A DNA stretch of 64,000 nucleotides from an uncultured Bacteroidales bacterium (GTDB lineage Bacteria; Bacteroidota; Bacteroidia; Bacteroidales; FEN-979). Shown here piece after piece: positions 3,123 to 54,669 of the stretch; the first letter of the stretch is position 1, and every line of letters begins with the position of its first letter. Made by a program: the position numbers and the translations under genes. Location of the stretch: positions 62,001-126,000 of the forward strand of contig CAIRDP010000020.1 of the NCBI GenBank assembly GCA_903877385.1, read 5' to 3'. The notes below the pieces were generated by a model. The model did not search any database. It was not told where the DNA came from and saw nothing but the letters and a program-made list of their open reading frames with translations.

Positions 3123-3153
3123 TTTTGGAACTTCTGATTGTTCAAAAAGACGA

Positions 3154-3183
3154 AGGCCGTCCCAAAAGGGCGGCCTCGTTTAT
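3154..3183 (+). terminator. Rho-independent terminator
   Basis: AGGCCG(t)CCC pairs with GGGCGGCCT across an AAAA loop, followed by a T-rich run. It ends the 88-aa gene and also lies just past the 3' end of the convergent tonB gene. The TCCCAAAAGG loop region recurs in three other terminators of this window. Confidence 0.75.
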
Positions 3184-3947
3184 TTACCGGGCATCCTGAA
3201 CACTATCGGCATCCTGATAACCACCCTTACCGAACGCCCGTTCCTCCTGGCAGGCTCCCAGCGGGGCATCAGCTTCACAACCCTTACAGCCTCTTCGTCG
3301 CAGCCTCCTCCAATTCCTTTCGTTACTTCAACATTTGAAAGCGAGCCGTCAATTTCAATAATAAATATCACAACCACCACTCCCTGCACTCCGGCTTTCA
3401 ATGCCGTTTCAGGATAACGCACATTCTTCCTCAGGAACCATAGCCTGGCATCATCGCCCCCGGGATATTTCGGGTATACATCGATTACGGCGACCAAACC
3501 GCTGGCATCCCCTTCCCCATGCCCGTTAACGGCATTTCCCAGCCCTTTGCCTGCCGTATCGGCCTGGTGTTCTTCTTCTTCAGGGGGTGGTTTGTCTTCG
3601 ACGGGTTTTAGTTTCTCTATAATGGCCGAATCGGTAACCACAGGCGCCATTTCTTCCGGGCTTGGTGTTTGCAGGGAACCGGCCAGCCTGCTCACATCGT
3701 CTTCGGGCGGCGGCAGAATGCTGTAGTACCGTACATCAGTTATCATATCGCTGTCAATAAGCGGTACTGGTTCAAAATAAAAGAAAAGGAAAGGGCTTAT
3801 CACCGCTAAAACAAATAACAGTATCCCGATAAAGAGCGAAATCAGGAGGTTTCGGGGGTAACGTTTACGAAGCACATACCCGCCATATGCCTGGTTCCTG
3901 CCAGTGAAAACAATGTCGAACAGATCAGGCTGACGGTTTGCCTTCAT
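3180..3947 (-). CDS. TonB-family energy transducer
   Basis: This 255-aa inner-membrane protein would couple the proton-motive force (ExbB/ExbD) to TonB-dependent outer-membrane receptors. The N-terminus has the Bacteroidota TonB signature FDIVFTGRNQAYGGY followed by RKRYP. A single membrane segment spans about 33-57. The periplasmic linker is rich in Pro and Glu (PPPEEEE near 120). The C-terminal TonB domain (about 175-253) contains VRYPETALKAGVQGVVVV and the terminal strand VRVVIRMPIVF. Its ATG overlaps the stop codon of the S4-domain gene (ATGA), so it is the last gene of the era-der-S4-tonB operon. No exbB or exbD is nearby, so it must use components encoded elsewhere. The family is multi-copy in Bacteroidota; which receptors it serves is unknown. 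Confidence 0.9.
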   Translation of the reverse strand: MKANRQPDLFDIVFTGRNQAYGGYVLRKRYPRNLLISLFIGILLFVLAVISPFLFFYFEPVPLIDSDMITDVRYYSILPPPEDDVSRLAGSLQTPSPEEMAPVVTDSAIIEKLKPVEDKPPPEEEEHQADTAGKGLGNAVNGHGEGDASGLVAVIDVYPKYPGGDDARLWFLRKNVRYPETALKAGVQGVVVVIFIIEIDGSLSNVEVTKGIGGGCDEEAVRVVKLMPRWEPARRNGRSVRVVIRMPIVFRMPGK

Positions 3948-7856: not shown

Positions 7857-8546
7857 ATGGAAAACCCTGCTTTGTCAGCATCGGAACAGAAAAAATATTA
7901 TTCTTATGCCTTAATTCTGGCTGTTTCAACCATTCTGATCTCTGCCGCCGAAGCGGGGTTTTCTGTTTATTTCGGACTGGCGGATGAGAGCCTCACTCTT
8001 TTCGGATTTGGTATGGACAGCCTTATCGAAATTATCTCAGGCATTGGCGTTGCAAGCATGGTACTTCGCATCAGGCGCAACCACGGCATCAGCCGGAATT
8101 CGTTTGAAAAAACAGCATTGAAGATCACAGGCTTCAGCTTCTTCTTTCTGGTGGCGGCACTTCTTCTCACAATCGCATACAACCTGCTCACAGCCCATAA
8201 ACCAGAAACCACCCTCAGTGGACTGGTCATCTCTGTTGCATCAATACTCTTTATGCTTGCCCTGCTCCTGGGGAAAAAGTCAGTAGGCGAAAAACTCGGG
8301 TCCAAAGCAATACTTTCCGACGCTGAATGCACCAGGATATGTATCTATATGTCGCTGGTATTGCTTGTTTCGAGCGGGATTTACGCCCTCATCAAGATCC
8401 CTTTCATTGATGAGGCCGGGACCCTTGCCCTGGCCTGGTTCTCGTTTAAGGAAGGAAAGGAATGTTTTGAAAAGACCAGGCACGATACCTTTTGTTCCTG
8501 CGGGCATGAGCAGGGATCAATCCCCTTAAACCTTGGCCAGGATTAA
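7857..8546 (+). CDS. CDF-like (cation transporter-type) membrane protein
   Basis: The 229-aa protein has about five to six hydrophobic segments: 16-38, 46-67, 88-108, 122-140, 163-182 and 187-200. The second segment carries FGFGMDSLIEIISG, like the D-x-x-x-[DE] metal-site helix of cation diffusion facilitators. A later acidic segment with DEAGTLALAWF is comparable to CDF TM5. The cytoplasmic C-terminal metal-binding domain of classic CDF exporters is missing. Instead the tail has a short Cys/His cluster, HDTFCSCGHE. It is best seen as a short CDF/TMEM163-like relative; the substrate is unknown. It probably shares a transcript with the peroxiredoxin, because no promoter or terminator is visible in the 63-bp gap. 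Confidence 0.7.
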   Translation: MENPALSASEQKKYYSYALILAVSTILISAAEAGFSVYFGLADESLTLFGFGMDSLIEIISGIGVASMVLRIRRNHGISRNSFEKTALKITGFSFFFLVAALLLTIAYNLLTAHKPETTLSGLVISVASILFMLALLLGKKSVGEKLGSKAILSDAECTRICIYMSLVLLVSSGIYALIKIPFIDEAGTLALAWFSFKEGKECFEKTRHDTFCSCGHEQGSIPLNLGQD

Positions 8547-8570
8547 TCACATTTCATCCCCGTTAAGACC

Positions 8571-9770
8571 TCATCCCCTTACATAGTACTTCTTCAGTAT
8601 CCCGGCTGCATACCTGAATTGCTCATCCGAATTATAAAGCTGGGCCGATAGCCTCGTGGTGCGCCGCGGAGGCTGTGACCAGTACCATAAAGGCAGCTCG
8701 AGATCATATTCCCTATAGATCCTGTCCTGCACCGCATCCGCGTCTTTATACCCCGGAGGATCAATCTCCCCCATCCGGGGCAGCTCCATGATGCACATCC
8801 CGGCATTCATCTCATCGGGACAGCTTGGTGTTAACCCGAGTTCCCGGCAAAAATAGTCCCTGGCCCTCATACAAACCTCATGGTTGCGTTTCATAATCGC
8901 CTCCCATCCGCCCGGCATCAGCGTGGCCATGTACTCTATGGAATCCGGTACGCAAAGAATTGGCGAAGGATCAGTGGTCCCCGGCCAGAAAAACCTCTCG
9001 GCAAAGGGCTCAGCCTTATGCCCTGCATGGCTTACAACCAGAGGCAGTATCCCCGCCTGCTTGTCCTTTCGCACATGTAGAATGGCAGCGCTTTTGGGCG
9101 TACACAGCCATTTGTGGCAGTTGGCAGTGTAATAAGCGGCCCCTATATTATTAATATCCAGTGGGATGCTCCCGGGCGCATGAGCCCCGTCGACCAGGGT
9201 ATCCACTCCCCTCTTTTCCAGCTCACGTACGATCTCTTCCACAGGCTGTATCAAAGCCGTTGCCGAAGTAATATGGTCAATGATGGCGATTTTTGTTTTT
9301 TTACTCACTGCGGATAGCAGGGCGTCGGTTATCAGGCCGGGTGAAGTTATGGGAATATCATACTGAGCCTCAACCAACACCGCCCCCGTGGCTTCTGCAA
9401 TGTACTCAAGAAGCTGCCTGCAGGCAAAATAAATGTGGTTTGTAAACAGTATCTCATCCCCCGCCTCGAAACGCAGCGACCTGAAAACGGTATTCACCCC
9501 GGCCGTGGCATTCGAAACAAAGACCAGTCCCGATGGATCGGCATTCACAAAAGAAGCTGTTTTCTCCCTAGCGTTGTTGAGCATGCCCTCAAGCTGCCTC
9601 ACCATAAACCGCATCGGCTGTCCTTCAAGCATATCACGGTATTCCTTCTGCTTTTCGAGGATGAATTTTGTACAGGCCCCGAAAGACCCGTGGTTCAGGT
9701 ACACCGTCCCGGGTTCAAGCGCCCAGAGGTGGGAATATTCAGATGGATAGCGGTATGTTTCTGGGTTCAC
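8571..9770 (-). CDS. PLP-dependent class V aminotransferase (isopenicillin-N-epimerase-like)
   Basis: I take the GTG at 9770 as start, giving 399 aa. The frame stays open to a TTG at 9854, but that extra part runs through a CGGCGAAGCCG hairpin and the heptamer repeat, and homologues usually begin a few residues before LEPGTVYLNHGSFGA. Fold-type I features are VYLNHGSFGA near the N-terminus, the cofactor-binding VDGAHAPGSIPLDIN, and NCHKWLC, whose Lys would hold PLP. The class includes isopenicillin N epimerase, cysteine desulfurase and kynureninase relatives. The real substrate cannot be told from sequence. It is not SufS/IscS: the desulfurase active-site Cys loop is not evident. It stands alone between rlmI and the CDF-like gene. 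Confidence 0.88.
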   Translation of the reverse strand: MNPETYRYPSEYSHLWALEPGTVYLNHGSFGACTKFILEKQKEYRDMLEGQPMRFMVRQLEGMLNNAREKTASFVNADPSGLVFVSNATAGVNTVFRSLRFEAGDEILFTNHIYFACRQLLEYIAEATGAVLVEAQYDIPITSPGLITDALLSAVSKKTKIAIIDHITSATALIQPVEEIVRELEKRGVDTLVDGAHAPGSIPLDINNIGAAYYTANCHKWLCTPKSAAILHVRKDKQAGILPLVVSHAGHKAEPFAERFFWPGTTDPSPILCVPDSIEYMATLMPGGWEAIMKRNHEVCMRARDYFCRELGLTPSCPDEMNAGMCIMELPRMGEIDPPGYKDADAVQDRIYREYDLELPLWYWSQPPRRTTRLSAQLYNSDEQFRYAAGILKKYYVRG

Positions 9771-9793
9771 GTCTATATATTTTGAATATCGTT

Positions 9794-9804
9794 CGGCGAA
9801 GCCG
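9794..9804. repeat. GAA-loop mini-hairpin
   Basis: CGGC-GAA-GCCG is a perfect four-base stem with a GAA loop, the same shape as the clustered hairpins at 20936, 22276, 27792 and 54597. It lies just upstream of the preferred aminotransferase start. Confidence 0.5.
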
Positions 9805-9819
9805 TAATGAGCACACAAA

Positions 9820-9959
9820 TGGAATTGACAATTGGTGCGAATAATATTGATCAACGAATGTTGACCATTGAACGGAAAATGTTTGTTAACGTCATTTCAT
9901 GATTTGAAACTATTTACTTCAAAATTCAACGTTCAATGTTCAATATTCGTTATTCATTT
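9820..9959. repeat. heptamer-period repeat (TTCAAnn units)
   Basis: At 9925-9959 five consecutive 7-mers begin with TTC: ttcaacg, ttcaatg, ttcaata, ttcgtta, ttcattt. On the opposite strand 9820-9875 shows the same 7-bp phase (ttcaatg, gtcaaca, ttcgttg, atcaata). The two blocks form an imperfect inverted repeat around the AT-rich centre. The array fills the gap between the end of rlmI and the aminotransferase start and has no coding potential of its own. Confidence 0.6.
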
Positions 9960-9964
9960 CTCCA

Positions 9965-11194
9965 CTATTCCACCTCAAGCACCATCCCCTTAAGGTATTC
10001 CCCTTCGGGATGGTAAATACTCACCGGATGGTCGGGCCCCTGCGAAAGATGATGAAGTATCCGAAGGTTCCTCCCGGTCTCAATAGCCGCCGACTGCAGG
10101 GCCGAACGGAACACCTCCCTGCTGATAGCCTGTGAACAGGAAAAAGTAAAGAGCAATCCGCCCGGCCTGAGATGCCTTATGGCCGTTGCATTCAGCTGTA
10201 TATAGGCATGAAGCGCATTGTTCGTAACCTGGTGGGTCTTTGCGAATGCGGGGGGATCAAGGATGATCATATCGTATTCAGCCCTGCTCTCCCTTAGAAA
10301 CACCTTGACATCAGCCACCTCTTCCGAATGAAGGGAACCCTCCAGCCCGTTCAGTGCAAAATTCTCCCGGGTCCACTCAATAGCCTGCTTCGAACTGTCG
10401 ACCGAATGCACATGCTTCGCCCCTCCTTTGAGGCAATACACCGAAAAGGCTCCCGAATAACAAAACGTATTGAGAACCACCCTGTTCCTTGCATAGAACT
10501 GGGCAAACATCCGGTTGCTGCGCTGGTCGAGGAAAAATCCCGTTTTCTGCCCGTTCACGAAGTCGACCTTGAATGTATGGCCTGTTTCGCTAATCTCAAC
10601 ATTCGGGGTGCTTCCGAAAAGGAACTGGTCGGATGGCAGGAATGAAATCATTTCGCTGTTTCGCCTTTTCGCTATTTCGCTGCTTTGCATTGAGCGAGCC
10701 ATGGTCTCAGCGCTTTTATCATAAACTGCGGATAGCTTTTCCCCATAGATCTCCTTCAGTGCATCAACCAGCAAGGGTTTAATATGATGCATTCCCATCG
10801 AATGGGTCTGTATAACCGCCACTCCATTGTACCAGTCGATGATCAGTCCGGGCAGCTCGTCCCCTTCGCTGAAAACGAGGCGGTAAGCGCTGTTTGAAGC
10901 ACTTTCGGTAAGCCCTGCCGACTTCCGCAGATCGAAGGCTTGCCTGAGCCGTCCAAGCCAGAAATCATACCCGGCTGTCGTCCGCAGGAAAGAAAATATT
11001 TTAATCGCGATGGATCCCTGCAGAAAATGCCCGGTAGCCAGGTAATCGCGCTCGGAAGAGAAAACCTCTACTATCCCGCCTTCCTTAACATCACCATCCT
11101 TGCGGTCAATAGCCCCCGAAAAGATCCAGGGGTGCTTCCTGAGAACCGCAGCTTCCTTGCCCGGCTTTAATATTATTGAAGGGAATCGGCTCAT
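9965..11194 (-). CDS. rlmI: class I SAM-dependent rRNA methyltransferase, RlmI-like (m5C1962 family)
   Basis: The 409-aa protein has an N-terminal PUA domain (1-80; HPWIFSGAIDRKDG), a central linker domain, and a C-terminal Rossmann methyltransferase with QKTGFFLDQRSNR, LNTFCYSGAFSVYCLKGGAK as the SAM-binding loop and MIILDPPAFAKT as catalytic motif IV. E. coli RlmI makes m5C1962 in 23S rRNA. The catalytic Cys of m5C enzymes would be in the FTFSCSQAI motif near the C-terminus. Residues about 169-182 (MQSSEIAKRRNSEM) are encoded by an 8-bp tandem repeat and look like an insertion in the inter-domain loop. The start is the ATG at 11194. Assignment to the family is firm; the exact target base is inferred. 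Confidence 0.9.
   Translation of the reverse strand: MSRFPSIILKPGKEAAVLRKHPWIFSGAIDRKDGDVKEGGIVEVFSSERDYLATGHFLQGSIAIKIFSFLRTTAGYDFWLGRLRQAFDLRKSAGLTESASNSAYRLVFSEGDELPGLIIDWYNGVAVIQTHSMGMHHIKPLLVDALKEIYGEKLSAVYDKSAETMARSMQSSEIAKRRNSEMISFLPSDQFLFGSTPNVEISETGHTFKVDFVNGQKTGFFLDQRSNRMFAQFYARNRVVLNTFCYSGAFSVYCLKGGAKHVHSVDSSKQAIEWTRENFALNGLEGSLHSEEVADVKVFLRESRAEYDMIILDPPAFAKTHQVTNNALHAYIQLNATAIRHLRPGGLLFTFSCSQAISREVFRSALQSAAIETGRNLRILHHLSQGPDHPVSIYHPEGEYLKGMVLEVE
10651..10690. repeat. octanucleotide tandem repeat inside rlmI
   Basis: Five consecutive octamers run in phase: tttcgctg, tttcgcct, tttcgcta, tttcgctg, ctttgcat. On the coding strand they read as AGCGAAAn units. The repeat stays in frame and adds about 14 residues to the RlmI-like protein. 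Confidence 0.8.
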
Positions 11195-11242
11195 AAACCT
11201 GAAAAAATCAAAAAATACTTGACTAAACGGTAAATTTATTAC

Positions 11243-11250
11243 TATTTTTG
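11243..11250 (+). promoter_or_regulatory. -7 box of the coiled-coil lipoprotein gene
   Basis: TATTTTTG fits TAnnTTTG and lies 23 bp before the ATG at 11273. Confidence 0.55.
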
Positions 11251-11272
11251 CTTAAATCTAAAACCAAACCCA

Positions 11273-12127
11273 ATGAAAAAGTATTTTTTGCTTCTTCTGA
11301 TTCCGGTTTTCATCGCATCATGCGGTCGCGAAGCCAAGAAAAAAGCAGCAGAATTGCAGGCACGCAACGACAGCCTGATGACTCAGACCATGCAAAAGGA
11401 TGAGGCAATTAACGAATTCGTCCGTTCAATCAACGATATCCAGGGCACACTGGATACGATCAAGATGAAGGAGAATGTAATCAATCTAAGTACCGAGCGC
11501 GGTGGCGAATTGAAACAAACCGCCAAGGATCAGATCAAAACCGATATCCAGACTATTTACAGCATGATGCTCAAGGATAAAGACCAGCTGGCAAAACTGA
11601 GCAAGAAGCTGAAAGCTGCAAATATGAAGGTTGACGAATTGCAAAAACTGGTTTCCCGCCTCGAAAAGGATATGGCTACAAAATCTGCCGAACTCGAGGA
11701 CATGAGGAGCAAACTGGCCAAGATGAACATCAAGTTCGAGGCTGCCACCCTTAAAATCGACACCCTGAGCAGGACTGTAAACGACCAGGGCCAGAAGATC
11801 AACAACCAGACCCAGACCATTGCCGCACAGGAAGAAGCTCTCAATACCGCTTACTATGTGATCGGCACAAGCAAAGACCTTAAGAAAAACGGTGTTATCA
11901 AGAAAGGCGATATTCTCTCGGATTTCAACAAGGAACTGTTCACCAAGATTGACATCCGCAAGACCACCGAGATCAGCATCCTGAGCAAGAAAGCCAAGAT
12001 CCTCTCGAGCCATCCCAGCACATCTTACAAATTCACTGGCGACAAGAAAGTCATCCAGTCACTGCAGATCCTTGATTACAAGGCCTTCTGGAGCAATTCC
12101 AAATACCTCGTGATTGTGGTTGACTAA
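11273..12127 (+). CDS. coiled-coil lipoprotein
   Basis: The 284-aa product has a lipoprotein signal peptide with lipobox FIASC (lipidated C17). Residues about 20-195 are almost continuous heptad-like coiled coil rich in K, E, Q, L and M (for example LAKLSKKLKAANMKVDELQK). A C-terminal globular region (about 200-284) includes AYYVIGTSKDLKKNGVIKKG and ends in VIVVD. This architecture matches a family of Bacteroidota envelope lipoproteins, some annotated as Cbp1-type collagen-binding; I would not infer collagen binding from sequence alone. The likely location is the inner face of the outer membrane or the cell surface. It is monocistronic, with its own promoter and terminator. Confidence 0.82.
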   Translation: MKKYFLLLLIPVFIASCGREAKKKAAELQARNDSLMTQTMQKDEAINEFVRSINDIQGTLDTIKMKENVINLSTERGGELKQTAKDQIKTDIQTIYSMMLKDKDQLAKLSKKLKAANMKVDELQKLVSRLEKDMATKSAELEDMRSKLAKMNIKFEAATLKIDTLSRTVNDQGQKINNQTQTIAAQEEALNTAYYVIGTSKDLKKNGVIKKGDILSDFNKELFTKIDIRKTTEISILSKKAKILSSHPSTSYKFTGDKKVIQSLQILDYKAFWSNSKYLVIVVD

Positions 12128-12146
12128 ACCAGGATCAACGGATTAA

Positions 12147-12178
12147 AAGAGGGTGTCCCAAAAGGATGCCCTTTTTTT
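12147..12178 (+). terminator. terminator of the coiled-coil lipoprotein gene
   Basis: GGGTGTCC pairs with GGATGCCC (two G-U wobbles in RNA) across a CAAAA loop, followed by seven T. It marks the left edge of the repeat-filled spacer. Confidence 0.8.
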
Positions 12179-12202
12179 GTGCATCCTGGCAAAACGGCCT
12201 TA

Positions 12203-12303
12203 TCAAGCATCGCGGCTGTGCCCAGGTCATTCAGCCAGATCAAGCACCGCGGCTGCACTGAGGTCATTCGGCCAGATCAAGCACCGCGGCTGCGCCCTGC
12301 GCT
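12203..12303. repeat. 37-bp tandem repeat, 2.7 copies
   Basis: Units begin at 12203, 12240 and 12277. Each starts tcaagca(t/c)cgcggctg; the first two end in (a/g)gccaga and are exactly 37 bp. The third unit runs directly into the 94-bp core that recurs at 40 kb. The region has only chance open frames. Confidence 0.8.
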
Positions 12304-12378
12304 ATCACATCTCTCCGGTCCCCGCTGTACAAGCGTTAGGGCCGCGCAGGCCAAGGCCGCTTATGCAGTGACATGGCC
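12285..12378 (+). repeat. 94-bp intergenic element, copy A
   Basis: Starting cgcggctgcgccctgcgctat and ending gcagtgacatggcc, this block aligns without gaps to the reverse complement of 40279-40372. By hand 86 of 94 bases match, and the last 43 match completely. Downstream, to 12470, are further partial copies of the atgcagtg and gggccgc motifs. Both copies lie in GC-rich spacers bounded by strong hairpins and contain no gene. Confidence 0.85.
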
Positions 12379-12473
12379 TTAATCCGCCTGATAAATCTGC
12401 AATTGAGCCAACAGGCCAGGGCCGCTTATGCAGTGCAGGGCCGCATGCCGGGGTGCAAACAAAACCTGGCCTG

Positions 12474-12532
12474 AGCAGAAATAAACGAAATGGGGCAGCT
12501 CAGAGAGCTGCCCCATTTCGTTTATTTCTGCT
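12474..12532. terminator. bidirectional terminator with perfect 28-bp arms
   Basis: Left arm 12474-12501 and right arm 12505-12532 are perfect reverse complements around an AGA loop; the core is GGGGCAGCTC/GAGCTGCCCC with AT-rich flanks. The right arm contains the last codons and the stop of the MORN lipoprotein gene (stop at 12522), so it can end that transcript and also any plus-strand read-through. Confidence 0.85.
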
Positions 12533-22252: not shown

Positions 22253-22275
22253 TGAATTTGGAAACATCCCTCATC

Positions 22276-22334
22276 GGCACGAAGTGCCATCGGCGCGAAG
22301 CGCCTTATCCCGCATCTGCAACGCGAAGCGTTGC
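22276..22334. repeat. GAA-loop hairpin repeats, cluster 2
   Basis: Three perfect hairpins stand in a row: GGCAC-GAA-GTGCC (22276-22288), GGCGC-GAA-GCGCC (22292-22304) and GCAACGC-GAA-GCGTTGC (22318-22334). The second and third are separated by ttatcccgcatct, and another cccgcat follows at 22339. They fill the gap between the dehydrogenase stop codon and the phosphofructokinase promoter. Confidence 0.85.
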
Positions 22335-23283: not shown

Positions 23284-23310
23284 ATCTGTTTTAATATAAT
23301 TAGCGAGCAT

Positions 23311-23362
23311 TTTACACTAGCGGCTTCAGGTCTAGCGAAGCGGACCGTAGCCGCGGTGTAAA
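23311..23362. repeat. long imperfect hairpin in the divergent spacer
   Basis: TTTACAC-ta-GCGGCT (23311-23325) pairs with AGCCGC-g-GTGTAAA (23349-23362). The loop contains tagcgaagcg, again the GCGAAGC motif. It lies between the divergent dehydrogenase and exporter genes, upstream of both. Confidence 0.6.
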
Positions 23363-23402
23363 GATGCGAGCGAACGCCGCGAGGTAAAATTGCGCGCGAA
23401 TT

Positions 23403-26811: not shown

Positions 26812-27786
26812 ATGCGCACGAAAAAAGAACTTCAGGAAATAATATCTTCGGCCTTTCATTCGGCAAATTTTCACTTTCAGCCATCATCCCTGTATGATCC
26901 CATTAAATACATGATAGAGCTGGGTGGGAAACGCCTGAGGCCTTCGCTTACCCTGATGTCCTGCGACATGTTCGGGGGAAGGATAGAAAACGCCCTTGCC
27001 CCGGCCATGGGACTTGAGCTCTTTCACAATTTCACCCTCCTCCACGATGACATCATGGACCAGGCCCCCATCCGCAGGGGCAAGGAAACGGTGTTTAAGA
27101 AGTGGAACACGAACTCGGCCATCCTTTCGGGCGACACCCTCTTTGTCATGGCCTATGAACTGGTCACAAAGACCACTCCCGCCCTGCTTCCCCAGGTGCT
27201 CGAGCTGTTCAACGATACTGCCCGCAAAGTCTGCGAAGGACAGCAGTACGATATGGATTATGAGTTCAGGGGCGATGTGTCGATTGATGATTATCTGCTG
27301 ATGATCAGGCTGAAGACGGCTGTGCTGATCTCATGCAGCCTCAAGCTTGGCGCAATCATAGCCATGGCCCCGGCTGAAGAAGCCGGGTTGATCTATGATT
27401 TTGGAGAGAACCTGGGACTTGCTTTCCAATTGCAGGATGATTACCTGGATGTTTTCGGCGAAGTGGATAAATTCGGCAAGGAGATAGGCAACGATATCGT
27501 TACCAATAAAAAGACCTACCTGTACCTCAAGGCGTTCGAACTGGCCGGGGGCGAAAAACTGGAGCTGCTGACCAGGCATTACCGCGACAGGTCCCTGCCT
27601 GCTCCCGAAAAAGTTGCAACCATCACGGGGATTTACCGCGAGCTGGGGATCGACGTTCTGACGCGTTCGCTTATTGATGAGTATTTTGCCAGGGCCCTGG
27701 ATATCATGGGCCGCATCAATATTCCCGAAGAGCGGAAGCAGCTCCTGCTCGAGCTTGCCGCCCAGATGGTGAATCGCGAGAGCTGA
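26812..27786 (+). CDS. trans-polyprenyl diphosphate synthase
   Basis: The 324-aa all-helical prenyltransferase condenses isopentenyl diphosphate with allylic diphosphates. GGKRLRP (38-44) binds diphosphate. The first Asp-rich motif is DDIMD (79-83) with downstream RRG, and the second is DDYLD (209-213). Residues before the first motif (FHNFTLLH) place Phe at about position -5, but I would not fix the chain length (C15 to C40) from that. Products would serve menaquinone or undecaprenyl-type pathways. The gene ends in the GAA-loop hairpin cluster 3, convergent with the ABC-F gene. Confidence 0.93.
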   Translation: MRTKKELQEIISSAFHSANFHFQPSSLYDPIKYMIELGGKRLRPSLTLMSCDMFGGRIENALAPAMGLELFHNFTLLHDDIMDQAPIRRGKETVFKKWNTNSAILSGDTLFVMAYELVTKTTPALLPQVLELFNDTARKVCEGQQYDMDYEFRGDVSIDDYLLMIRLKTAVLISCSLKLGAIIAMAPAEEAGLIYDFGENLGLAFQLQDDYLDVFGEVDKFGKEIGNDIVTNKKTYLYLKAFELAGGEKLELLTRHYRDRSLPAPEKVATITGIYRELGIDVLTRSLIDEYFARALDIMGRINIPEERKQLLLELAAQMVNRES

Positions 27787-27791
27787 TCATC

Positions 27792-27839
27792 GGCGCGCAG
27801 CGCCATCAGCGCGAAGCGCTATCATCGGCACGAAGCGCC
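27792..27839. repeat. GAA-loop hairpin repeats, cluster 3
   Basis: GGCGC-GCA-GCGCC (27792-27804), AGCGC-GAA-GCGCT (27808-27820) and GGCAC-GAA-GCGCC (27827-27839, one mismatch) stand in tandem, joined by atc-rich linkers. They lie between two convergent genes, and the second and third copies are inside the ABC-F reading frame. Confidence 0.85.
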
Positions 27840-29761
27840 ATCTCCTCATGCAGGCTCTCCCATCTCTCCATCTCGGCGCCAAGCCTGGATTTCATCTCTT
27901 CGTATTCTTTGTAAAGGGAGCCGTCCTTGATCCGGTCCTGGTGCTTCTGGGGCTCGGCCAGCTTTGCTTCAAGCAGGACGATGCTGTTTTCTAGGCTTTC
28001 AATCTCATCCTCCGAACGGCTTATCTGGGTCCTGATCTTCCGCAGGTCCCTCTCGCTTTCCTTCTTCTTCTCGTAGCTTACCTTATTATCCGATGCAGCA
28101 TCAGGCTGGGCTTCCTTTTTGGCTGCGGTATTCTTTTCCAGCTCCGAAAGCTCCCTTATCTTCCTCTGTTCCAGGTAATCGTAGATGTCGCCAAGATGTT
28201 CCCTGATGAGGCCGTCCCTGAATTCAAAGACCCTGTTGGTAAGGCCCTGCAAAAAATCCCGGTCGTGAGAGACGATGATAAGTGTGCCGTTGTACTGCAG
28301 AAGGGCGCTCTTCAGAATGTCCTTTGAACGCATGTCGAGGTGGTTGGTAGGCTCATCGAGGATAAGGAGGTTGGCGGGTGTAAGCAGGAGTTTTGCAATG
28401 GAAAGCCTGGAGCGTTCGCCCCCGCTCAGCACCTTGACTTTCTTTTCGGTATCGTCCCCGCTGAAAAGAAAACCTCCCAGTATGCCTTTGATCCTGGGCC
28501 GTATGTCCCCCACTGCTATTTCATCTATGGTACTGAATACGGTGAGTTCGGGGTTCAGGTGCTCACTCTGGTCCTGGGCATAATACCCGATAACCACATT
28601 ATGTCCTTTTTTAAGCTCACCCGAATAGTCAAGCAGGCCGGCAATGACCTTAGAAAGCGTGGTTTTACCCTCCCCGTTACGTCCCACGAATGCAAGACGG
28701 TCGCCCTTGATGACCGAGAAATCCAGTGCATTGAGCACCCTTTTCTGGGGATAGTCCTTGCATACGTTCTTCCCCTCGAGCACGATCTTGCCCGAATGCG
28801 GGGCGGGCGGAAAACGGAAATGTATGGCGGATTCATCGGTGGCTTCCACCTCCACCACATCCATCTTCTCAAGCATTTTGATCCTCGACTGTACCTGTTT
28901 TGACTTGGTGTTCTTGTACCTGAACCTCTCGATGAAACGTTCCACCTGCCTGATCTGCCTTTGCTGGTTCTCGTAGGTGGCCAACTGGCTTTCCATCCGC
29001 TCTTCCCGCATCTCCACGTAGCCCGAGTAGTTGGACTTGTAATCGTAGATCTTGCCCATGGTGATTTCTATGGTGCGGCTACAGATATTGTCGAGGAAAG
29101 CCCTGTCGTGGGAAACCAGGATCACCGCCCCCCTGTATTGCAGCAGGAAGCCCTCAAGCCATTCTATGGCTTCAATATCCAGGTGGTTGGTAGGTTCATC
29201 AAGCAGTATAAGATCGGGCTGCCTCAGTAGGATCTTGGCAATCTCAACCCTCATCTGCCATCCGCTGCTGAATTCCTGCATGGGGCGGTGGAAATCCTCA
29301 CGCGCAAACCCAAGCCCGGTAAGCACTTTTTCCACATCGGCATGGATTGAACTTCCTCCTGTAAGATGAAAACGCTCGTAGATATCCGACTGCTGCCGTA
29401 AAAGCGAATGGTATTCCTTTGACTCAAAATCCTTGCGCGTATGTATCTCCTGTTCAAGCAGTTTGATCTGCTTCTCCATTTCAACGATCTCCGAGAAGGC
29501 CATCGAAGCCTCTTCCAGGACCGATTGCCTGCTCCTGACCTCCATTTCCTGGGGAAGGTAACCAATGGTCTGCCCCTCGGGTACCACCACTTCGCCCTCT
29601 TCGCTGCCTTGCAGCCCTTTGATGATTTTAAGCAGGGTAGATTTACCGGCCCCGTTTTTACCCACCAGCCCTATCCTGTCCTCATCGTTGATGATGAACG
29701 AAACGTGTTCAAACAGGGCTTCCCCTCCGAACTGCACCGATATATTTGATACTGAAACCAT
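27806..29761 (-). CDS. ABC-F family ATPase (ribosome-associated)
   Basis: From the ATG at 29761 (MVSVSNISVQFGGEALF) the protein is 651 aa. It has two ABC domains and no membrane segment. The first has Walker A GLVGKNGAGKST, signature SSGWQMRVEIAK and LLDEPTNHLDIEAIEWLE. The second has FVGRNGEGKTT, LSGGERSRLSIAK and LILDEPTNHLDM. The inter-domain linker is long and charged, followed by a C-terminal coiled coil (about 560-640), as in Uup/YdiF-type ABC-F. These proteins bind the ribosomal E site or act in assembly and antibiotic protection; the subfamily is not certain. The last 10 or so codons (ALRADDSASR) are encoded by the hairpin repeats. Confidence 0.93.
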   Translation of the reverse strand: MVSVSNISVQFGGEALFEHVSFIINDEDRIGLVGKNGAGKSTLLKIIKGLQGSEEGEVVVPEGQTIGYLPQEMEVRSRQSVLEEASMAFSEIVEMEKQIKLLEQEIHTRKDFESKEYHSLLRQQSDIYERFHLTGGSSIHADVEKVLTGLGFAREDFHRPMQEFSSGWQMRVEIAKILLRQPDLILLDEPTNHLDIEAIEWLEGFLLQYRGAVILVSHDRAFLDNICSRTIEITMGKIYDYKSNYSGYVEMREERMESQLATYENQQRQIRQVERFIERFRYKNTKSKQVQSRIKMLEKMDVVEVEATDESAIHFRFPPAPHSGKIVLEGKNVCKDYPQKRVLNALDFSVIKGDRLAFVGRNGEGKTTLSKVIAGLLDYSGELKKGHNVVIGYYAQDQSEHLNPELTVFSTIDEIAVGDIRPRIKGILGGFLFSGDDTEKKVKVLSGGERSRLSIAKLLLTPANLLILDEPTNHLDMRSKDILKSALLQYNGTLIIVSHDRDFLQGLTNRVFEFRDGLIREHLGDIYDYLEQRKIRELSELEKNTAAKKEAQPDAASDNKVSYEKKKESERDLRKIRTQISRSEDEIESLENSIVLLEAKLAEPQKHQDRIKDGSLYKEYEEMKSRLGAEMERWESLHEEMALRADDSASR

Positions 29762-29784: not shown

Positions 29785-29821
29785 AAAAAAAAAGGTGCCC
29801 TTTTGGGACACCCTTTTTTTA
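29785..29821 (-). terminator. terminator of the 1818-aa T9SS gene, bidirectional
   Basis: On the minus strand GGGTGTCCC, AAAA and GGGCACC form a stem with a one-base bulge, followed by a run of ten T. A-run and T-run flank both sides, so it can act in either direction. It insulates the ABC-F promoter seven bases further on. Confidence 0.8.
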
Positions 29822-40215: not shown

Positions 40216-40271
40216 AGGTGGCACTGTCACTGCATCGTGGATATGGTCTGCGCTAAAACAGCTTTGCCCAG

Positions 40272-40433
40272 GCTTAGCGGCCATGTCACTGCATAAGCGG
40301 CCTTGGCCTGCGCGGCCCTAATGCTAGTGTAGCGGGGACCGGCGAGATCCTATAGCGCAGGGCGCAGCCGCGATGCAGTGATACGGCCGCATGGACTGGG
40401 CATAACCGCGATGCAGTGAAGGGCCGCTAAGCC
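40272..40433. repeat. intergenic element, copy B, with 12-bp terminal inverted repeats
   Basis: GGCTTAGCGGCC at 40272-40283 and GGCCGCTAAGCC at 40422-40433 are perfect inverted repeats bounding 162 bp. Inside, 40279-40372 is the reverse complement of the 94-bp core at 12285-12378 (86 of 94 matching by eye). From 40373 on there are about two 38-bp units containing cgatgcagtga, comparable to the 37-bp units of copy A. No open frame of substance or transposase is present. Confidence 0.85.
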
Positions 40434-40436
40434 TGC

Positions 40437-40482
40437 GCAAAAACAAAGAAGGCGTCCTTTCGGACGCCTTCTTTGTTTTTGC
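40437..40482. terminator. terminator with perfect 21-bp arms
   Basis: Arms 40437-40457 and 40462-40482 are perfect reverse complements around TTTC; the core is GGCGTCC/GGACGCC, flanked by AAACAAAG/CTTTGTTT. It ends the 1300-aa T9SS gene and separates it from copy B of the intergenic element. Confidence 0.85.
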
Positions 40483-54584: not shown

Positions 54585-54596
54585 TGCATCCCCCAT

Positions 54597-54653
54597 CGGC
54601 GTGTAGCGCCTTATCCCGCATCCGCGCGAAGCGCTCTTATCGGCGCGAAGCGC
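54597..54653. repeat. GAA-loop hairpin repeats, cluster 4
   Basis: GGCG-tgta-GCGCC (degenerate), then GCGC-GAA-GCGC (54623-54633) and GGCGC-GAA-GCGCC (54641-54653). The linker ttatcccgcatc at 54610-54621 is shared with cluster 2. It lies between the rpmA terminator and the serS promoter. Confidence 0.82.
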
Positions 54654-54669
54654 CTCATCCCAAATTTCT

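Follow-up and report, generated by a model that had tools for sequence, protein, structure and literature searches.

What kind of non-coding sequence returns almost unchanged, in inverted orientation, in two spacers of one bacterial genome? This question is raised by the window, a 64,000 nt stretch of DNA from an uncultured Bacteroidales bacterium, in which positions 12285–12378 (+) align without gaps to 40279–40372 (-) over 94 bp, with 8 mismatches (at 12306, 12307, 12308, 12314, 12327, 12328, 12331 and 12335 of copy 1) and a longest identical run of 43. In these figures the preliminary description of the locus was exact on recomputation. The match can be extended to 98 nt at 91% identity (9 mismatches over the 98), and since its whole-genome E-value is 1.9e-32, chance is excluded as its source. 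The spacers are indeed GC-rich (57% and 59%, versus 49.8% for the window) and non-coding, their longest stop-free frames reaching 84 and 61 aa, and the long perfect hairpin reported near each copy was recovered with arms of 28 bp (12474–12532) and 21 bp (40437–40482). Copy 1 lies between convergent genes, copy 2 between codirectional ones. In the home assembly (4.3 Mb in 67 contigs) the close 94-bp form exists as these two full copies only; beyond them there are one fragment (12412–12442) and one weak 17-nt match (E 2.28). A covariance model (see below) added two diverged members of the same family, at G000:C20:132042-132155 and at 23307–23368 of the window (G, C and L denote genomes, contigs and loci throughout).

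The folded units are slightly larger than the 94-bp core and are accompanied by partial copies and terminators:

12145..12178, + strand: intrinsic terminator belonging to the upstream gene, directly ahead of the inserted block (repeat finding, by eye)
12197..12270, + strand: two extra left half-copies as a 37-bp tandem upstream of copy 1, the second unit 78% identical to the first
12273..12374, + strand: full copy 1 of the hairpin element (model R2, 74.6 bits, E 1.2e-19 in the window)
12412..12435, + strand: extra right half-copy, 96% identical over 24 nt (E 9.9e-5 in the genome search)
12474..12532, no strand assigned: terminator formed by a perfect 28-bp palindrome, at the 3' end of the convergent gene (repeat finding)
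23307..23368, - strand: third copy, a short 62-nt form (R2, 24.5 bits, E 7.9e-5 in the window)
40220..40250, - strand: degenerate right half-copy beside copy 2 (by eye; weak)
40283..40385, - strand: full copy 2 of the hairpin element (R2, 89.3 bits, E 5.1e-24)
40401..40422, - strand: extra left half-copy beside copy 2 (by eye)
40437..40482, no strand assigned: 21-bp perfect palindrome terminator beside copy 2 (by eye)

The 37-bp units start at 12197, 12234 and 12271, and the last one continues into full copy 1, whose outer arm is partly decayed on the 5' side. The outer arms of copy 2 are intact (TCACTGCA/TGCAGTGA), and all 8 differences between the two copies fall within the hairpin loop. The third copy resembles short forms found in G002 and G003 of the same genus. 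The two long palindrome terminators are probably not part of the element, because terminator hairpins are seen by eye also in the empty spacers of congeners. A terminator type with GTCCCAAAAGG is repeated in the window (12145–12178, 29786–29819 and 3153–3184) and stands, by eye, directly 5' of many element copies in genus g3. Furthermore, the window spacers 22269–22319, 27769–27854 and 54593–54669 hold a second short palindromic repeat family with the core GGCGCGAAGCGCC.

From the aligned copies a common architecture can be read. The element is an imperfect hairpin of about 60–120 nt (62 to 123 nt for the whole element, with a loop of variable length), and its outer stem is variable yet complementary, about 8–11 bp long and 17 bp in one copy. 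Read 5' to 3', the first half consists of the outer arm (e.g. GTCACTGCA), an unpaired AC, GCNGC, TGC, a G, the inner arm and the loop; the second half is made of the partner of the inner arm, C, AAG, GCNGC, TTA and the partner of the outer arm (TGCAGTGAC). The first internal loop is thus a 2x3 loop, AC/TTA, in which the unpaired AC may be AC, TC or CC. A stem of 4–5 bp (GCNGC/GCNGC) separates it from the second internal loop, TGC/AAG, which is closed by a covarying G-C pair and in which T.G is perhaps a wobble. Outside the window's genus, many copies are preceded on the 5' side by a further small GC-rich hairpin, CTCAGGCCGGGCGGCCTCGTC. At a few places a palindrome of the CCTGCC..GGCAGG type was seen by eye, inserted into the element's TTA/TG bulge and into its small 5' hairpin (L047 1590–1612; L067 3268–3292 and 3150–3175).

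The stems covary. In alignment A2, double changes occur in 18 of 24 pairs and fill 209 cells, versus 67.1 in shuffled alignments and no more than 39 with a slid partner; in A3 they occur in 20 of 24 pairs and fill 159 cells (46.8 shuffled, at most 41 slid), all these counts coming from alignments that were fitted to the model and include related copies. The rows of A3 were collected with a covariance model; 29 of the 47 belong to other taxonomic families, 3 are shared with A2, and one place matched on both strands (L167 2237–2334) as well as two partial rows are included. The 29 rows from other families (26 distinct) alone yield 91 double-changed cells in 20 of 24 pairs, versus 23.7 on average and a maximum of 33 in 500 shuffles. 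The letters of the loops are constant to 80–100% in A2, except for the first unpaired base (59%), and those of the outer arms to 48–98%. In A3 the loops range over 53–98% and overlap with the outer arms (47–93%), thus the loop letters are not uniformly the best-conserved part.

How far does this hairpin reach? BLAST in 100 related genomes returned short, partly diverged matches, the better ones of one architecture by eye. Nine aligned copies (A1) gave the covariance model R1, and 56 matches gave R2. With stricter filters and a subset of candidates scored whenever more than 40 genomes were searched (93–100 candidates per genome at the level of the taxonomic family, 17 for the order and 10 for the phylum), all genome counts are lower bounds: at E<=0.01, R1 detects the element in at least 22 of the taxonomic family's 43 genomes, a figure that R2 raises to at least 24. 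Copy numbers according to R2 reach at least 57 in G017, 21 in G004, 20 in G006, 19 in G030 and 18 in G033, with 3 in the home genome. In the order, at least 15 of 247 genomes match at E<=0.001, belonging to 11 of 174 genera and 10 taxonomic families, with at least 11 copies in G255 and 9 each in G237 and G128; two of these 15, the home genome and G010, are from the window's own taxonomic family. In the phylum sample 3 of 395 genomes match at E<=1e-4: besides the home genome, these are two weak matches from outside the order, of which one shares the class and the other the phylum. With no more than 10 candidates scored per genome, this is only a weak negative. A scan of named genomes with an exact pattern found 19 stretches: one lies in an Opitutaceae MAG, the other 18 belong to Bacteroidales/Bacteroidetes MAGs. 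Several of the latter are titled Lac Pavin, fen or Chersky, and some of the contigs are those of our G genomes. The element was not found in plasmids and phages, nor, by the exact pattern, in viral contigs. Rfam at the gathering threshold reported only a tRNA in the window, and four element-bearing loci searched at E<=1 gave a single miRNA model with 22.8 bits against a cut-off of 72. We found no description of the family in the open-access papers searched. It appears to be an undescribed repeat family, widespread in environmental Bacteroidales, and the dispersed non-coding family that had been inferred from the two window copies is borne out by the many genomes and the covarying stems. In G255 the element lies within tandem units of about 250 bp (L157 103–704) and in G237 within units of 312–329 bp (L165–L169), several of them at contig ends.

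Folding was compared for DNA and RNA. As DNA, the stretch 40260–40408 around copy 2 folds with z -3.7 on the - strand and -4.9 on the + strand, and the wider units of window copy 2, L005 and L085 fold significantly, with z between -3.7 and -5.7 (L077 is weaker, at -2.0 and -2.3). The short third window copy reaches z -4.2. The bare 94-nt core folded as RNA is without significance (z -1.3 to 0.5). The kind of mismatch tolerated in the stems differs between the strands. With the two outermost pairs and the T-G column, which is constant, set aside, A.C mismatches on the strand as read outnumber G.T by 45 to 11 in A2 and 27 to 7 in A3, by 47 to 18 with every pair type entered a single time per genome, and by 15 to 2 in the other families alone; shuffles predict ratios of about 1.3. 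The excess of A.C on the strand shown means, therefore, that the complement tolerates G.T or G.U. This suggests that the folded complement strand is the form under selection.

Genomic context can also be informative about the level at which such an element acts. Among 99 distinct copies, 84 overlap no ORF of 80 aa or more and 15 do, according to simple calling. For 73 copies both neighbours could be read from simple ORF calls (the other 26 lack one neighbour in the stretch): 23 lie between convergent genes, 19 in sense and 19 in antisense between codirectional ones, and 12 between divergent genes. The orientation is neutral to transcription; therefore, an element acting at the DNA level is favoured.

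The two sites of the window were followed through the genus. Orthologues of the gene preceding copy 1 exist in all seven other genomes, and the gene pair is kept in six of these congeners, with stop codons about 30–70 nt apart around one terminator. In the window the same site measures 394 bp and holds the element complex plus a second terminator; by eye, the terminator at 12145–12178 occupies the place of the single one of the congeners. In the seventh congener, G006, the next gene was not found in the stretch. The gene pair around copy 2 is kept in four of seven congeners with 91–149 nt between; of the remaining three, G001 shows a partial match, and in the stretches of G002 and G006 the second neighbour was not detected. 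Even at E<=10, R2 found the element in none of the orthologous spacers of the congeners but only in those of the home genome. A separate short copy is present elsewhere in the G002 stretch (L188 617–678). The presence and absence between species could reflect loss instead.

Copies are frequently nested: in the window and in L083, L084 and L085, halves of one copy flank another by eye, and copies are often seen near terminators. Two places in G006 share a 193-bp block, 99.5% identical, that comprises both element and terminator; the moving unit may thus be larger than the hairpin. No target-site duplication of constant length was seen by eye in the flanks of the 56 matches, and the divergence of the empty sites prevents junctions from being placed to the base. 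The idea that the core inserts into CATG-centred palindromes already present was rejected for lack of enrichment (3 of 23 non-N palindromes across 1.24 Mb of loci). In L163 (G030:C100:73000-90000) four copies in one orientation are located among toxin-antitoxin-like, IS21-like and ATPase genes by eye; one gene of this region (8801–9157) matched no Pfam family.

Within the window's genus the arms appear to be exchanged as blocks. Three arm types (like CGTATAAATGCA, CGCAACCTTACA and CGCATCCTCRCA) recur across species on similar cores. In a comparison of 24 copies of this genus with gapped arms, L251 and L252, both from G004, differ at 7 of 89 core positions, yet, as read directly from the aligned copies, at 6 of 12 positions of the left arm and at 5 of 10 of the right arm; each hairpin nevertheless stays paired, apart from a single bulge. 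Point mutation followed by compensation cannot easily be the source of this arm change; template switching within hairpins can, and recombination between nested copies could. That template switching in hairpins creates compensatory changes is described in the available parts of PMC8794818 and PMC7202029. Because template switching alone should remove mispaired loops, the loops of the element are probably held by selection for recognition. Outside the window's genus none of 129 copy pairs with cores at least 80% identical had both arms at 60% identity or less, a comparison limited to copies with ungapped arms that pair at 8 or more of 11 positions. Therefore, arm exchange rests on one genus, where it offers a natural test case for palindrome arms which change together without slow compensatory mutation.

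If the element moves, an enzyme has to be looked for. Y1 transposase genes (IS200/RAYT-like, PF01797) are present in 32 of the 43 genomes of the family, with 87 matches. We inspected 50 of these 87 loci, 39 of them in element-bearing genomes, with flanks of 1.5–2.5 kb or up to the contig end, and found the element beside none, neither in 30 loci at E<=1 nor in 20 loci at E<=10. The link to RAYT genes that had been proposed as a check was thus not found, and within the 50 loci inspected a RAYT or other Y1 protein is rejected as the linked transposase. Y1 genes occur in 20 of 24 element-bearing and in 12 of 19 element-free genomes; the element-bearing genomes G019, G030, G034 and G041 have none at E<=1e-6, a cut-off that also loses weakly scoring RAYTs, so that this absence is not firm. 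RAYTs with the Bacteroidetes signature (YIHQNP/YIHNNP) at L225 (G017:C93) and L227 (G023:C2) are flanked by another hairpin, GGCGCGCGT..ACGCGTGCC, as seen by eye. The available part of PMC6006769 mentions 'atypical secondary structures' beside this RAYT subclass in Bacteroidetes, and in G017 and G023 such a flanking role seems to belong to this other hairpin. A sequence similar to it was also noticed by eye near some element copies in G017.

Integron-integrase-like proteins were found with a piece of at least 113 bits in 11 of 16 genomes, none above the curated cut-off, and matches at E<=1e-5 occur in all 14 control genomes as well; in G017, the genome with most copies, the best piece has only 77 bits. 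In 158 kb around 15 integron-like integrase regions there was no element at E<=10. L208 (G006:C56:41000-53034) contains at 8531–11549 an integron-like system of an integrase-like gene followed by three attC-like repeats of about 105 nt, which end in GTTAGGT, GTTAGGC and GTTATGT. A related integrase lies near a contig end of the home genome (L214, G000:C23, 7972–9066); its protein is extended at the N-terminus and reaches 232 bits with TIGR02249 (cut-off 265) and 224 bits with NF040815 (cut-off 220). Cassette-like genes beside integrases code for a protein with a transpeptidase domain (PF00905), by eye perhaps a class D beta-lactamase (L206, G255:C7, 9116–9928), and for a MazF/PemK-like toxin (PF02452; L216, G040:C360, 8896–9240).

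A longer, gene-bearing version of the element was not found in the examined loci; the search for it returned two pairs, one between the tandem copies of L068 and one, chance-like, in the window. Transposase genes of other types stand beside four copies:

L067 230–1282: IS110-family transposase (PF01548/PF02371), 38 bp from a copy in G010
L164 10308–11303: IS110-family transposase (PF01548/PF02371), 59 bp from a copy in G030
L069 3403–4545: IS110-family transposase (PF01548/PF02371), 310 bp from a copy in G017
L005 1–1467: DDE transposase (PF13751), 36 bp from a copy in G006

The hairpin may be a target for insertion sequences of this kind. As a general source of it, IS110-family or DDE elements are unlikely, because most copies read by eye have no such gene adjacent.

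What, then, is the element? A simple old inverted duplication 28 kb apart would agree with the home genome having only two close full copies, but homologous, structure-preserving copies exist in many genomes, and as a full account it is refuted by the family-wide copies and the covarying stems, hence this idea can practically be dismissed. The preliminary description had reserved it for the case of two copies only and no structure-preserving substitutions; what we found are diverged members and double changes. Alternatively, the copies might be passive palindromic junk, spread by segmental duplication and paired by template switching, without an enzyme and without a selected function. The tandem half-copies, the tandem units in G255 (about 250 bp) and G237 (312–329 bp) and the arm pairs replaced en bloc would go well with this, as does the compensatory effect of template switching in those parts of PMC8794818 and PMC7202029 cited above. 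However, asymmetric internal loops persist which template switching should erase, one architecture is kept across 10 taxonomic families of the order, and the mismatches are asymmetric between the strands; such a passive origin therefore seems unlikely to us.

The covariation, strong as it is, together with a G.U-type tolerance on one strand only and the conservation of the internal loops in A2, would also be expected from a structured RNA family, in which the complement is transcribed, the internal loops bind a protein or ligand and the copies spread as passengers. Against this speak the neutral orientation (19 versus 19 among codirectional genes, and 12 of 73 copies in divergent spacers), the lack of an Rfam match for the element in the window and in the four loci, its absence from the orthologous spacers of congeners, and the flanks, in which no conserved promoter was noticed by eye. 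We consider an RNA family rather improbable. The preliminary description had left the choice between a mobile element, a structured RNA and a chromosome-organisation site; with sites empty in congeners and a neutral orientation, the mobile element fits best, and a transcribed RNA is less likely. Could the mobile element be an integron-type recombination site, that is, a divergent attC scattered as single sites? Length and topology are similar, integron-integrase-like proteins (pieces of at least 113 bits) are encoded in 11 of 16 of the same genomes, and G006 even has an array with attC-like sites of about 105 nt, but conserved RYYYAAC/GTTRRRY boxes are lacking, the outer stem is variable, the 158 kb around 15 integrase regions are free of the element at E<=10 and the genome richest in copies, G017, has only the 77-bit piece, all of which makes this very improbable.

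We prefer to see in the element a dispersed, non-coding, non-autonomous putative mobile hairpin of the REP/ERIC/MITE-like kind that would be moved in trans by an enzyme, and assign to this reading a probability of about 0.6. The conserved mispaired loops would then be what an enzyme provided in trans recognises. This enzyme may act during replication or excision, on the element folded as a single strand, probably the complementary one. The arms would be renewed by template switching within hairpins or by recombination, whereby new arm sequences could arise as matched pairs. A bolder version, which we put forward tentatively and regard as doubtful, is a new class of mobile hairpins: the signal would be the pair of mispaired internal loops in one strand, the arms would be interchangeable modules, and the outer stem, including local flank, would be taken up or rewritten as a matched pair on moving, by a putative single-strand recombinase or replication mechanism of Bacteroidales. 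The search for the enzyme which recognises the internal loops can start from this family, for which a covariance model, empty sites and clear predictions are now supplied.

It remains to place the element among known systems. attC sites are imperfect hairpins of about 60–120 nt which are read as a folded single strand and carry R''/R' boxes of the form RYYYAAC and GTTRRRY. The element resembles them in length and in the topology of an imperfect hairpin, and no constant boxes of this form were seen by eye in its alignments; membership is rejected by the lack of R boxes and of an adjacent integrase in 15 regions. ERIC, a 127-bp intergenic repeat of enterobacteria, and other small MITE-like repeats (RUP, Correia, BOX) are imperfect palindromes without an ORF whose mobiliser is unknown or borrowed. 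With them the hairpin shares size, imperfect palindromy, intergenic location and absence of an ORF, but it belongs to an unrelated host group and is set apart from ERIC by description. Unlike classical MITE terminal repeats, the ends of its arms vary between subfamilies. A MITE of a DDE insertion sequence, which would have constant terminal inverted repeats in common with an autonomous IS, is not supported, the outer arms differing between subfamilies and no autonomous version being present in the examined loci. Porphyromonas gingivalis has MITE239/464/700 and BrickBuilt, described in the available part of PMC4596501 with TIRs near those of the IS5 family (ACGT.. or GAGAC..). These are small non-coding repeats of Bacteroidales too, BrickBuilt with predicted stem-loops, but the element has no such fixed TIRs and is, as far as that part of the source goes, set apart by description.

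The likeness to REP, REPIN and BIME sequences lies in short intergenic non-coding hairpins in many copies, with nested compound arrangements, and in a hypothesised movement in trans by a host-encoded single-strand enzyme (RAYT, i.e. TnpA-REP, a Y1 HUH protein, in the case of REPs). HUH transposases act on folded single-strand REPs, as IntI does on attC. The element differs in being about 100 nt long, compared with 20–40 for REP, and no constant foot GTAG/GTGG was seen by eye in alignments or flanks. In CGTC-tagged REPs, as far as the available part of PMC3733652 describes them, the CGTC tag ends an 8–9-bp stem with a 4–5-nt loop. The g3/g4 copies have, by eye, a CTCGTC between a small hairpin of about 5 bp and the large hairpin; measured against that description, this candidate is rejected, the g3/g4 stem being too short and the copies of the window's genus having no tag by eye. 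What the element does share with REP and REPIN sequences is that it is a dispersed, intergenic, multi-copy palindrome, with up to 57 copies in one genome and 84 of 99 copies without ORF overlap. A member of none of the families tested, it best fits a new family of the REP/ERIC/MITE kind.
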